A stretch of 64,000 nt of DNA from Senegalia massiliensis. GTDB taxonomy: Bacteria > Bacillota > Clostridia > Tissierellales > SIT17. Position 1 is the first letter of the stretch. Each line of letters starts with the position of its first letter. The position numbers and the translations under genes were made by a program. Under the pieces are notes generated by a model, which searched no databases, had not been told where the DNA came from, and saw nothing but the letters and a program-made list of their open reading frames with translations. The DNA is taken from the NCBI RefSeq assembly GCF_009911265.1, contig NZ_QXXA01000001.1:124001-188000 (forward strand), read 5' to 3'. Below are positions 15,321 to 41,806 of the stretch, in pieces.

Positions 15321-15392
15321 ACATACAAATAAAGGGGGAAATATATCATGTATCTGATATAATAGTATTATAAATTTTAAAGGGTGTATGAT

Positions 15393-16460
15393 ATGAGTAT
15401 AAATTTAAAAAAGCTTCCAGAACTACCTGGAGTCTATATTTTTAAAGATAAATATAAAAATATAATATATATAGGAAAATCAAAATGTCTTAAAAAAAGA
15501 ATAAAACAGTATTTTTATAAATCTAAAAATGATTCTAGGAAAATTGAGAATTTAAAATTCAATATACATGACTTAGATTATATTGTAACAGATACAGAGC
15601 TTGAAGCATTGATACTTGAAAGTAAAATGATAAAAAAACATAAGCCTAAATATAATAGTTTACTTAAAGATTTTAAATCTTATCCCTATATAAAAATAAC
15701 TAATGAAGAGTTTCCAATTATTAAAACATGCTATAAAATAAAAGATGATAATGCATTATATTTTGGACCATATAATAGAAAAAATTTAGTGTATGGAGTA
15801 GTAGAATATATAAATGAATTGTTTCCTATTAGGAAATGTGGAAACAATAAAAAAAAGAAGCCTTGCCTATATTATCATTTGGGCAAATGTCTATGTCCTT
15901 ACAGTAAACAAAGGGATGTAAAAGCTGAGTATGAACATATGATAAATAAAATAATAAATATTTTAAATGGAGATGGAAAATATTTATTAAAAAAATTAGA
16001 AGAAAAAATGAAATATTATTCTAAGAATCTTAATTTTGAAAAAGCAGCTAATTATAGAGACAAACTATCTAAATTTAGAACTTTAATATATAATCAAAAA
16101 ATAATTTCAAAAGCTTTATCTCAAAGAGAAATAATTATAATAGAAAGAGATATAAAAACTAACAAGAAAATATATTTTATAAGAGGTGGAAGAATACTCC
16201 ATACATTTAGTATATCAAGTATAAATGAAAATGTTTATGGAGATATAAGAAAGTTTTTATATCCTTTAATCAATAAACAAAAATCATATCAAGAAATATT
16301 ACTTCAAGAACAAATAGATGAAGCACAGATAATTGAAACTTGGGTAAATAATAATGATGTAAAGTATGTAGATGTTGAAGAAAGTATGGATATAAATACA
16401 TTAACAAATAAAATTTATACTGTACTTTCCATTCTAGATAAAGAGAAGAATGTTGTGTAG
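15393..16460 (+). CDS. Short UvrC-like GIY-YIG nuclease
   Basis: Resembles the N-terminal half of the excinuclease subunit UvrC. Residues 10-85 form a GIY-YIG nuclease domain (GVYIFKDK...IIYIGKSKCLKKRI, with the later TELEALILE Glu). Four Cys lie in RKCGNNKKKKPCLYYHLGKC and nearby, and a UVR motif (NLNFEKAANYRDKL) may bind UvrB. It stops after about 355 aa, so the RNase H-like second nuclease and the helix-hairpin-helix of UvrC (about 600 aa) are absent. It could make only the 3' incision, like Cho, or act in another pathway. ATG 15393 is preferred over GTG 15384, which overlaps the ribosome site AAAGGG. No full uvrC is in the window. Confidence 0.8.
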   Translation: MSINLKKLPELPGVYIFKDKYKNIIYIGKSKCLKKRIKQYFYKSKNDSRKIENLKFNIHDLDYIVTDTELEALILESKMIKKHKPKYNSLLKDFKSYPYIKITNEEFPIIKTCYKIKDDNALYFGPYNRKNLVYGVVEYINELFPIRKCGNNKKKKPCLYYHLGKCLCPYSKQRDVKAEYEHMINKIINILNGDGKYLLKKLEEKMKYYSKNLNFEKAANYRDKLSKFRTLIYNQKIISKALSQREIIIIERDIKTNKKIYFIRGGRILHTFSISSINENVYGDIRKFLYPLINKQKSYQEILLQEQIDEAQIIETWVNNNDVKYVDVEESMDINTLTNKIYTVLSILDKEKNVV

Positions 16461-16491: not shown

Positions 16492-16525
16492 ATTAAATGG
16501 ACAATAAAGTTCAGTGGGTGATTAT

Positions 16526-16990
16526 ATGGCAAAAGAAAGCATTAAAATTGTATCAAAAAATAGAAAAGCAAGACATGAATATTTTATTGAAGAAGTGTAT
16601 GAAGCAGGTATTGCTTTATCTGGTACAGAAGTAAAATCAATACGTAAAGGTAAAGTAAACATAAAAGAAAGCTATGCTTCTATTGATAATGGAGAAGCTT
16701 ATATTAATGGTATGCATATAAGCCCATATGAACAAGGAAATATTTATAATAAAGATCCATTAAGAAAAAGAAAACTTCTTTTGCATAAAGGAGAAATTCG
16801 CAAACTTATTGGATATACTTCTCAGCAAGGCTATTCACTTATACCTTTAAGTATTTATTTTAAGAATGGTTTAGTGAAACTTGAAATAGCAATAGCTAAA
16901 GGTAAAAAGTTATATGATAAAAGACATGATATAGCTAAAAAAGATGCTAAGAGAAGAATGGAAAAATATATGAGTCCAAAGAATTATTAA
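16526..16990 (+). CDS. smpB: SsrA-binding protein SmpB
   Basis: Binds the tRNA-like domain of tmRNA and delivers it to stalled ribosomes for trans-translation. The 154-aa length fits the family once ATG 16526 is used; the upstream GTG at 16514 overlaps the ribosome site. Landmarks are [39 protein letters not shown], the [11 protein letters not shown] strand and the basic C-terminal tail [19 protein letters not shown] that occupies the empty mRNA channel. The ssrA gene begins 5 bp after the stop, so both partners can be made from one transcript. Confidence 0.97.
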
Positions 16991-16995
16991 TATAT

Positions 16996-17621
16996 GGGGG
17001 CGACCTGGCTTCGACGGGGGTACGGAGTATGGAGTAGCCGGAGGTTGTCGCCAAACAACCTAAAAAGTGGCAACTTAAATTAAACGCAGACGAAAATTAC
17101 GCATTAGCTGCCTAATAAAGGTAGCTCACTTACTCTAATAGTCCCGCCTATTAGAGATTAAGTGTCATTATAAGCGGGGCCCTGCTTAAGGGATTCTTTG
17201 ACCTTAAGTTAGTATAATTAGAGATAGTTCATCATTTAGCCTGTTGCTTGGCGATTTGATGGATGAAATTAAAGAAGCAACTGTTTCGGGAGAAACTCCA
17301 TATGAAGTACCTTCGGACGTGGGTTCGATTCAGAAAGAGTCGCCTGCTAAAGTGATTTAGCAGTGAAAATCTGGCTTTATCGGTGAAGGCTAAGGAAAAT
17401 CTAAGCTAATACCGAGGAGTATGTAGAGAAATCTAACAGCCCTGTATCGACTTATAGGCTACTAAGTCAATTAGATATGTAGCACTAGGATAGAAGTAGT
17501 GATTAGAAACAATCAAATAATAGCTTCTATAATACGCCAGAGAGGTTTATAAAATTAAACTTCAAGATATAGTCAGTGCCTTTAGGAAACTATAGGATAA
17601 AACGTCCCACCGCCTCCACCA
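16996..17621 (+). ncRNA. ssrA: Transfer-messenger RNA, interrupted by an intron
   Basis: The 5' end GGGGGCGACCTGGCTTCGAC pairs with the 3' end CGCCTCC-ACCA to form a seven-pair acceptor stem whose third pair is G-U, the alanine identity signal; CCA is encoded. The tag frame at 17086-17115 reads ADENYALAA then two TAA stops. The T-arm starts at GGACGTGGGTTCGAT but its 3' half TCCCACCGCC appears only at 17605, after 275 extra bases that look like a group I intron. Removing these leaves a mature RNA of about 351 nt, the normal size, with a correct T-loop TTCGATT. Working tmRNA therefore requires splicing. Confidence 0.95.
17330..17604 (+). ncRNA. Group I intron in the tmRNA T-loop
   Basis: Inserted between T-loop positions 59 and 60 of ssrA. 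The 5' exon ends in T (17329) and the intron in G (17604), as the group I mechanism needs. The exon end CGAT pairs with an internal guide GTCG (17339-17342), giving a terminal U-G pair. Hairpin P2 is CTGCTAAA/TTTAGCAG; P4 can form from TCGGT (17380-17384) and ACCGA (17411-17415). The core element AAGATATAGTC (17564-17574) can pair with GACTTATA (17449-17456) with one bulge, as in P7. No open frame for a homing endonuclease is present. Pairings were found by eye and need folding. Confidence 0.88.
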
Positions 17622-17627
17622 TAACAT

Positions 17628-17661
17628 AAAGCCTTGATTTCGATTGAAATCAAGGCTTTTA
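17628..17661 (+). terminator. Bidirectional terminator after ssrA
   Basis: A 14-bp stem (AAAGCCTTGATTTC and its complement, loop GATT) is followed by TTTTAT on the plus strand and TTTAT on the minus strand. It closes ssrA and also the convergent minus-strand gene, whose stop codon overlaps it. Confidence 0.85.
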
Positions 17662-17955
17662 TAATGCCATGAATTCTTTATAAAATTGTTCTTTTCTTTT
17701 TCTCAATTCATCATTGTATTTTCCATTTCTAGGAGTAATCTTCTTGTATTTTTGTAATATTAATTTTGCTCTGGATTTTTTTCTATCTATAACTAAATAA
17801 GGTTCAATCTCTTTAAGTAAAATTAAAGAATCGTTGTAAATTACTCTGTAAGTAAATGAATCTTTATGTTTTTCTTTATTATAATTTTTCTTTGATATTA
17901 TTCTTCCCATTTTGGTTACTATGGAATCTAGTAAGGATAATACTTCCTTCTGCAT
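17659..17955 (-). CDS. Hypothetical protein downstream of HTH regulator
   Basis: A 98-aa, strongly basic, soluble protein with no recognised domain. It is the third gene of a small minus-strand operon: its ribosome site GAGGAA overlaps the last codons of the HTH regulator, and ATG 17955 is taken as the start rather than TTG 17958. The C-terminal half is rich in Lys and Arg (ILQKYKKITPRNGKYNDELR), which would allow nucleic acid contact, but this is only a property of the sequence. Its stop codon lies in the shared terminator with ssrA. Confidence 0.6.
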   Translation of the reverse strand: MQKEVLSLLDSIVTKMGRIISKKNYNKEKHKDSFTYRVIYNDSLILLKEIEPYLVIDRKKSRAKLILQKYKKITPRNGKYNDELRKRKEQFYKEFMAL

Positions 17956-17958
17956 CAA

Positions 17959-18153
17959 TTATTCCTCAAATATAAATAATTCTTCTACTGTAGTATTAAG
18001 TAATCTAGCAAGTTTTATTGCTAATTCTAATGATGGATCATATTTATTATTTTCAATAGCATTAATTGTTTGTCTTGTTACACCTACGGATTTTGCTACA
18101 TCTTCTTGTCTAAATTTAAGTTCTTTTCTTAGTTTTTTTATATTATTCTTCAT
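17959..18153 (-). CDS. Small XRE-family HTH regulator
   Basis: A 64-aa protein consisting almost entirely of an HTH_3/XRE DNA-binding domain: RQEDVAKSVGVTRQTINAIE contains both helices of the motif, followed by NNKYDPSLELAIKLARLL. Such minimal regulators, often next to a small membrane protein, occur widely in Firmicutes. The start ATG 18153 lies inside the end of the upstream membrane-protein gene (11-bp overlap), which points to coupled translation. It probably controls its own operon from the promoter at 18412-18440; no operator repeat was identified. Confidence 0.85.
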   Translation of the reverse strand: MKNNIKKLRKELKFRQEDVAKSVGVTRQTINAIENNKYDPSLELAIKLARLLNTTVEELFIFEE

Positions 18154-41559: not shown

Positions 41560-41806
41560 AGGTTACAATATATTCAATAGACTATGATAGGAAGAGTAGA
41601 TATAGAAAAACATTTTAGCGAGTTGATTATGGTGAAAGTTCAACATGTATACTATATTGAAGAACATCCTTGAGTTTCTAACTGAAATCTTTTGAGAGTA
41701 GGATTAGACGGATACAAACCGTTATTTTGATTAGAGTTGGTCATAAGACAACTAGGGTGGTACCGCGGAATCTTTTCGTCCCTTTTTAGGGAGAGAAGAT
41801 TTTTTA
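41560..41806 (+). promoter_or_regulatory. T-box riboswitch, asparagine specifier
   Basis: The T-box core AGGGTGGTACCGCGG at 41754-41768 is unmistakable. Upstream stem I has the usual AGAGTAGATA and distal GGTGAAAGTT elements, and the specifier position reads GAAGAACATCC, giving codon AAC for asparagine (41663-41665). The core is followed by a terminator (TCTTTTCGTCCCT with AGGGAGAGAAGA, then TTTTTT). Uncharged tRNA-Asn should bind and allow read-through into asnS. Confidence 0.93.

Follow-up and report, generated by a model that had tools for sequence, protein, structure and literature searches.

A group I intron in a bacterial tmRNA gene and a LAGLIDADG endonuclease gene outside it: possible collaborative homing on cellular chromosomes

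Introduction

The tmRNA gene (ssrA) of Senegalia massiliensis is split within its T-loop by an insert of 275 nt, and the locus raises the question of what this insert is and how an intron lacking an open reading frame of its own could move from one genome to another. Group I introns in the tmRNA T-loop are already in print (Williams 2002, cited through PMC11915505). The accessible part of PMC11915505 counts 883 unique intron-form tmRNAs across 21 phyla, at four T-loop sites among which position 7 predominates, and reports endonuclease genes inside 36 of the 883 introns (4.1%), compared with 54% for archaeal rRNA introns. The original prediction for this locus described T-loop introns in bacterial tmRNA genes as known but rare; the same source bears out the first and, by its numbers, makes the class less rare than supposed. 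The S. massiliensis intron, which apparently sits at position 7 of that numbering, is on its own ordinary, since the class has been published on this scale. In phages, group I introns can be mobilized in trans by free-standing endonucleases, a process termed collaborative homing and described, in the portions of PMC3984707 and PMC10448857 available to us, for cyanophage psbA, T7-like phages and the ICP1 terminase. Here we describe the intron, its gene and its surroundings in a 64,000-nt stretch of the chromosome (the window) and compare them with related genomes. The intron is of a known kind; the unexpected part is an endonuclease that lies outside it.

Results

Apart from the insert the ssrA gene is complete (Table 1). 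It matches the Rfam tmRNA model RF00023 with 133.8 bits (E 3.8e-52); read by eye, its acceptor is GGGGGCG/CGCCUCC with the G3-U pair present, and CCA is encoded. The tag, G3-U pair and CCA were thus predicted correctly, with exact coordinates. The T-loop bases TTCGAT occupy 17324-17329 and TCCCACC resumes at 17605, the last of the 275 intervening bases being a G, and the insertion point reads TTCGAT^T. The joined exons give TTCGATTCCCACC. Of the three other genomes available for the genus, G002 and G003 have this sequence unbroken. Because the gene is uninterrupted in these two sister species, the intron boundaries are exact. The third genome (G001) carries the intron in a gene that is 99% identical. 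With an otherwise complete ssrA and empty sites in relatives, the insert qualifies as a tmRNA T-loop intron.

Table 1. Features at the ssrA locus of the window (window coordinates)
Feature	Position	Strand	Remarks
smpB (tmRNA partner protein)	16514..16990	+	immediately 5' of ssrA; Pfam SmpB E 1.9e-63
ssrA precursor	16996..17621	+	626 nt, 351 nt without intron; RF00023 and by-eye reading
Tag reading frame ADENYALAA plus stop	17086..17115	+	read from sequence
Group I intron	17330..17604	+	275 nt; between T-loop nucleotides 6 and 7
Internal guide GUCG	17339..17342	+	pairs with 5' exon CGAU (P1); U.G at splice site
P2 hairpin	17344..17363	+	8 bp; both-side changes in 6/8 pairs
P3, 5' strand	17370..17375	+	partner 17536-17541; both-side changes in 3/6 pairs; 100% paired
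P7, 5' strand GACU	17449..17452	+	partner AGUC 17571-17574, pseudoknot; paired and invariant in 20/20
P9 hairpin	17579..17596	+	5' of terminal G17604; both-side changes in 3/6 pairs
Terminator-like hairpin	17629..17658		between ssrA and endonuclease remnant; either strand could use it; by eye
LAGLIDADG endonuclease remnant	17659..17977	-	free-standing, convergent with ssrA, outside the intron

A second, uninterrupted ssrA would have spoken against the original prediction, and none was found: genome-wide (53 contigs, 99%-complete assembly), RF00023 detected no second tmRNA above its cut-off, and nine further matches, several with tRNA 3' ends, reach at most 31.3 bits against a cut-off of 47. 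ARAGORN reported no tmRNA on the window. In practical terms, this ssrA is overlooked by ARAGORN and its intron by an Rfam search at gathering level. It had also been proposed that ribosome rescue here depends on splicing; this stands for trans-translation but not for rescue overall, as an RqcH-like NFACT gene is open in the genome (E 8.9e-162) and may provide another route. Elsewhere in the window, a T-box leader lies at 41575-41786 (125 bits).

The insert matches RF00028, the Rfam group I model, over 17315-17596 with 31.8-31.9 bits (E 2.8e-6 on 651 nt), and in the whole 3.1-Mb genome this is the top of three matches (E 3.2e-6; next E 0.009). The covariance-model check suggested with the original prediction therefore gave a match, but one below the gathering cut-off (31.9 of 50 bits), a score that is a curation limit and no biological definition. 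P1 appears in the minimum-energy fold of the precursor, together with P2, P3, P4, P5, P6, P6a, P7.1, P7.2 and P8; P9 is absent from that fold and is seen when the intron is folded alone. To assess covariation we used a hand-written P2-P9 structure with the P7 pseudoknot and an alignment of 20 homologous introns, among which the columns of the guide GUCG are invariant. Pairing was found in 93.8% of 1456 alignment cells, falling to 31-44% after a slide of one to three columns. Changes on both sides occurred in 35 of 78 pairs, against a shuffle mean of 17.3 and with 0 of 500 shuffles as high; the count of further pair types was not above the shuffles (218 of 500). P7 is invariant and P4 and P6 are without both-side changes, so that none of these three helices contributes covariation; helix 10, which extends P7.2 outward in the window intron, is not conserved (41% paired). 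We take the P7.1/P7.2 extensions of the window intron to point to subgroup IA. One P5 pair (alignment columns 61/88), G.U in 17 introns, is A.C in the other three (L014, L045 and L057), possibly an isosteric wobble swap. In the introns of L016, L017, L057 and L229 the P7.2 loop contains short inserted palindromes such as GGGGACATTCCCC or GGGGTGTGTCCCC.

A covariation-supported P3-P9 core with the P3/P7 pseudoknot, a U at position -1 paired with a guide G, and a terminal G place the insert among group I introns. The model match, the covariation and the empty sites thus confirm the predicted identity, and the internal guide, P2, P4, core string, -1 U and terminal G that had been picked out from the letters all hold.

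The prediction that the intron has no endonuclease frame is correct inside the intron, but it missed a remnant of one just outside the gene. The C-terminal half of this remnant is an open frame (17662-17958); a motif fragment, GIIDAEG, lies in a different frame, within a profile match at 17909-17977. The two profile matches have E values of 3.4e-34 and 2.8e-6, and a Pfam scan of the remnant gave no match. Offsets in its alignment with the copy in G001, which is frameshifted too, indicate two deletions of about 71 and about 92 bp. With its N-terminal part deleted and out of frame, the remnant lacks the complete frame and motif of a LAGLIDADG enzyme, and the window's own copy is dead. Its stop codon falls 37 nt past CCA, as compared with 38-45 nt in L043, L164, L166, L167 and L169, and other genomes have intact genes in this position, for example at L164. 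The endonuclease is not intron-encoded, because the 3' exon and, in the window, the terminator-like hairpin intervene. As a candidate nuclease for the intron we also considered, but rejected, a GIY-YIG gene that lies at 15384-16460, between rnr and smpB: it is Cho/UvrC-like with a UvrC-type UVR motif, and a relative is found at the same place in the intronless G003.

Among solved structures, the best sequence relatives of the endonuclease are forms of I-MsoI: a fused single-chain form, in which two stretches add up, with E 1.8e-11, and the natural chain (1m5x) with E 5.5e-5. An AlphaFold2 model built from a 7-row alignment (pLDDT 87.5 for the best of five models, 46-59 for the rest) matches I-MsoI with TM 0.70 (fold E 2.3e-7) and I-CreI with TM 0.73. 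Two of four full-length copies pass Pfam LAGLIDADG_1, one of them also LAGLIDADG_3, and two fall below the cut-off; by motif and fold the intact relatives belong to the LAGLIDADG family. Intact copies are under purifying selection (median dN/dS 0.17 for 10 copies over 38 of 45 pairs, the other 7 being saturated and many pairs having dS above 1), and a Shine-Dalgarno-like sequence precedes, by eye, all six starts inspected.

Relatives also occur in viral sequences. A scan of viral contigs with the T-loop/guide pattern returned 103 stretches, three of which were read by eye as tmRNA introns (L070, L147 and L158); the others appeared by eye to be uninterrupted tRNA ends or fortuitous matches and were set aside, L093 and L110 alone being read in more detail. 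On these three phage-like contigs the tmRNA is split by a 653-654-nt intron with an antisense LAGLIDADG frame inside, a copy 35% identical to the outside endonuclease, and its C-terminal motif TPRNGKY recurs on the window's minus strand just 3' of ssrA. Pistol ribozymes were seen on L070 and L158. The top three of 12 viral relatives are two of these phage tmRNA-intron copies and a gene of Sphingobium phage Lacusarx that adjoins a permuted ssrA. They lead only narrowly, with 83-78 bits compared with 74 for the runner-up, and CcrRogue and WilliamBoone are close behind; in the stretches examined, no tmRNA annotation lies beside the relatives in these last two, and the WilliamBoone gene is among tRNA genes. 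Endonucleases in or beside phage tmRNA genes may point to a lineage specialized on the tmRNA T-arm. A search for relatives of the intron in GenBank phages returned none, and the whole ssrA matched plasmid records only over 46 bases of an Acetoanaerobium record.

We searched for the endonuclease by profile in two overlapping sets, with 249 genomes from the order and 391 from the class (19 in common, 621 in all). Matches were obtained in 17 and 19 of these, respectively (G000 and G024 in both sets), or 34 of 621. In 30 of the 34 the gene lies 3' of ssrA and convergent with it, and this position recurs in 12 family codes. The distance is at most about 350 bp in 24 genomes (15 of the order and 9 new in the class), and about 3-55 kb on the same contig in six (G287, G421, G430, G514, G535 and G603). 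By eye, the displaced endonucleases of L228 (G603) and L236 (G430) are accompanied by ssrA-like tails and that of L229 (G514) by an intron's 3' half, as if islands had landed in between. In L228, L229, L236 and L242 genomic islands or prophages seem to have inserted at ssrA, separating it from the endonuclease. The displaced piece in L229 begins within the intron, close to the guide sequence, and the attachment site may therefore extend over both exon and intron. The other four genomes are G194, with a weak match away from ssrA; G376, where an ssrA-like tail accompanies the endonuclease on a contig other than that of ssrA; G605; and G024, in whose assembly no tmRNA was found. At the G024 locus (L168) an intact endonuclease gene abuts an apparent group II intron 3' end at the contig end. 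G603 holds a second, broken copy elsewhere, away from ssrA (L244).

The intron pattern was found in 15 of the 249 order genomes and 18 of the 391 class genomes. These counts exclude uninterrupted T-arms, chance matches of tRNA type (G074 and G078 in the order; G261, G272, G293, G425, G453 and G597 in the class), and count once two genomes with two matches each (G218 and G238); the pattern missed at least one genome (G535). One contig of G238 (L218, G238:C2) holds two intron-bearing ssrA genes 5 kb apart, the second scoring 87.8 against 130 bits. Endonuclease and intron tend to occur together. The endonuclease is present in 11 of 15 intron genomes and 6 of 234 others in the order (both 11, intron only 4, endonuclease only 6, neither 228; Fisher 3.4e-12), and in 11 of 18 and 8 of 373 in the class (both 11, intron only 7, endonuclease only 8, neither 365; Fisher 3.0e-12), in tests that use pattern-only counts on sets that share 19 genomes and treat as independent genomes that are not. 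In the remaining 4 (order) and 7 (class) intron genomes no endonuclease was found, lenient settings on the flank included.

Nine endonuclease copies are intact with the intron and none without it, whereas 13 are broken with and nine without (Fisher p 0.025). All intact copies with a known ssrA accompany an intron-bearing one (G038, G221, G238, G240, G241, G303, G341, G514 and G603), and those beside or downstream of an intronless ssrA, a state that was read directly, are all broken (9 of 9), as would be expected if the active enzyme cuts the uninterrupted gene. Intact here means a full-length profile match without stops; G240 was called intact despite missing its last residues, and a contig end truncates the G246 gene as well. 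G376 was entered as broken with intron, on different contigs and with a weak endonuclease match (21.7 bits), G024 (intact) was left out, its assembly having yielded no ssrA, and G535 stands on the intron side here and on the no-intron side in the Fisher tests above. We placed both characters on an 89-row tmRNA tree of chosen genomes; 83 were scored for both, and six whose tmRNA gene lies close to a contig end were left without a score for the endonuclease. At least 19 changes of intron state are required on this tree. Phylogenetically controlled pairs vary the same way in 5.7 cases and the other way in 0.9 (median p 0.125), or 5.6 against 0.4 with the comparison reversed (median p 0.0625); a smaller 59-row run was weaker (median p 0.625). 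Under phylogenetic control the association is suggestive only.

Distances between introns correlate with those between exons (Mantel r 0.63, p 0.001, 31 genomes), and much of the inheritance may therefore be vertical. Two introns group apart from their exons: that of G057 with G244 of another family (97/90), its exons with a different clade (100/100), and that of G378 with G010 (91/87), its exons with its own family (100/100).

Discussion

Our results raise the possibility that an intron without a reading frame is moved by an enzyme encoded next door. We envision a scenario in which guanosine attacks at U17329 and exon ligation restores TTCGATT-CCCAC in a 351-nt tmRNA, as the anatomy of the intron would predict, while its mobility at the DNA level is, or was, supplied in trans by the separate convergent LAGLIDADG gene about 40 nt past CCA. 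The endonuclease, a homodimer by analogy, would cut a recipient's uninterrupted ssrA, and repair templated by the donor would copy intron and endonuclease gene together, the intron shielding the donor's own site from cutting. Once the intron is fixed the endonuclease would decay, the state seen in the window, and loss of the intron would then become possible. Homodimeric LAGLIDADG enzymes prefer even-centred pseudo-palindromes, and the T-arm palindrome has an odd centre, which counts against the proposed cleavage.

A free-standing endonuclease gene, broken in the window, does adjoin an intron without a reading frame, and we consider it probable that the pair represents collaborative homing, an intron served by a trans-acting outside endonuclease. 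The broader proposal, that an endonuclease anchored 3' of ssrA throughout the class mobilizes such tmRNA introns on cellular chromosomes, we hold to be somewhat better than an even bet. Our literature search, from whose coverage most subscription papers were absent, found no report of collaborative homing for tmRNA.

The most serious alternative, although in our judgement an unlikely one, is that the intron is an ordinary one, inherited vertically or spread by reverse splicing, and that the endonuclease independently homes to the 3' flank of ssrA as integrases do, their association being coincidental. The correlated intron and exon distances, the non-significant controlled pairs, the nine genomes with an endonuclease wreck near an intronless ssrA and the genomic islands that seem to use the same 3' site are all consistent with coincidence; against it stand the raw association of about 3e-12 in two overlapping genome sets, the restriction of intact copies to intron-bearing genes, and the presence of a homologue of the endonuclease within tmRNA introns on phage-like contigs. 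Those intron-borne copies, 35% identical and antisense, together with the endonuclease genes that PMC11915505, in its accessible part, places within 36 of 883 known tmRNA introns, lend themselves to a further scenario: the outside gene was once encoded in an intron and moved out, or was itself the donor of the intron-encoded ones, and has no present role in mobility. We regard this as improbable, given that intact outside copies are under purifying selection and that the gene is present 3' of ssrA in 12 family codes. A defunct group I intron or some other insertion in a non-functional ssrA, at which the Rfam score below gathering might hint, is scarcely credible for the sole ssrA found in a genome with an intact smpB, with helices, guide, terminal G and covariation all maintained and with a tmRNA intron of C. 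botulinum stated, in the part of PMC2729099 available, to have been shown to self-splice.

If homing in trans by the outside endonuclease is correct, it would provide a mechanism for the spread of tmRNA introns across the 21 phyla counted in the accessible part of PMC11915505, and would help to explain why few of them contain an endonuclease of their own despite a scattered distribution. It would also extend collaborative homing, as described for phages in the portions of the two papers cited above, to bacterial chromosomes and to an RNA gene.

How does this arrangement compare with known systems? The enzyme resembles I-MsoI and I-CreI in its length of about 135 aa, its single motif and its predicted alpha-beta-beta-alpha-beta-beta-alpha fold. 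Those two enzymes are encoded inside rRNA introns, whereas the gene described here lies outside the intron and antisense to it. The intron shares with known tmRNA T-loop introns the gene, the loop, the -1 U, the terminal G, the length range and the usual absence of a reading frame; it differs in that an endonuclease gene lies outside ssrA, while the accessible part of PMC11915505 describes endonucleases inside introns and mentions none outside. As in the phage cases, to the extent that PMC3984707 and PMC10448857 are available, a group I intron is adjoined by an outside endonuclease gene; unlike in those cases, the endonuclease is of the LAGLIDADG type, its cleavage is putative, and the setting is an RNA gene on cellular chromosomes.
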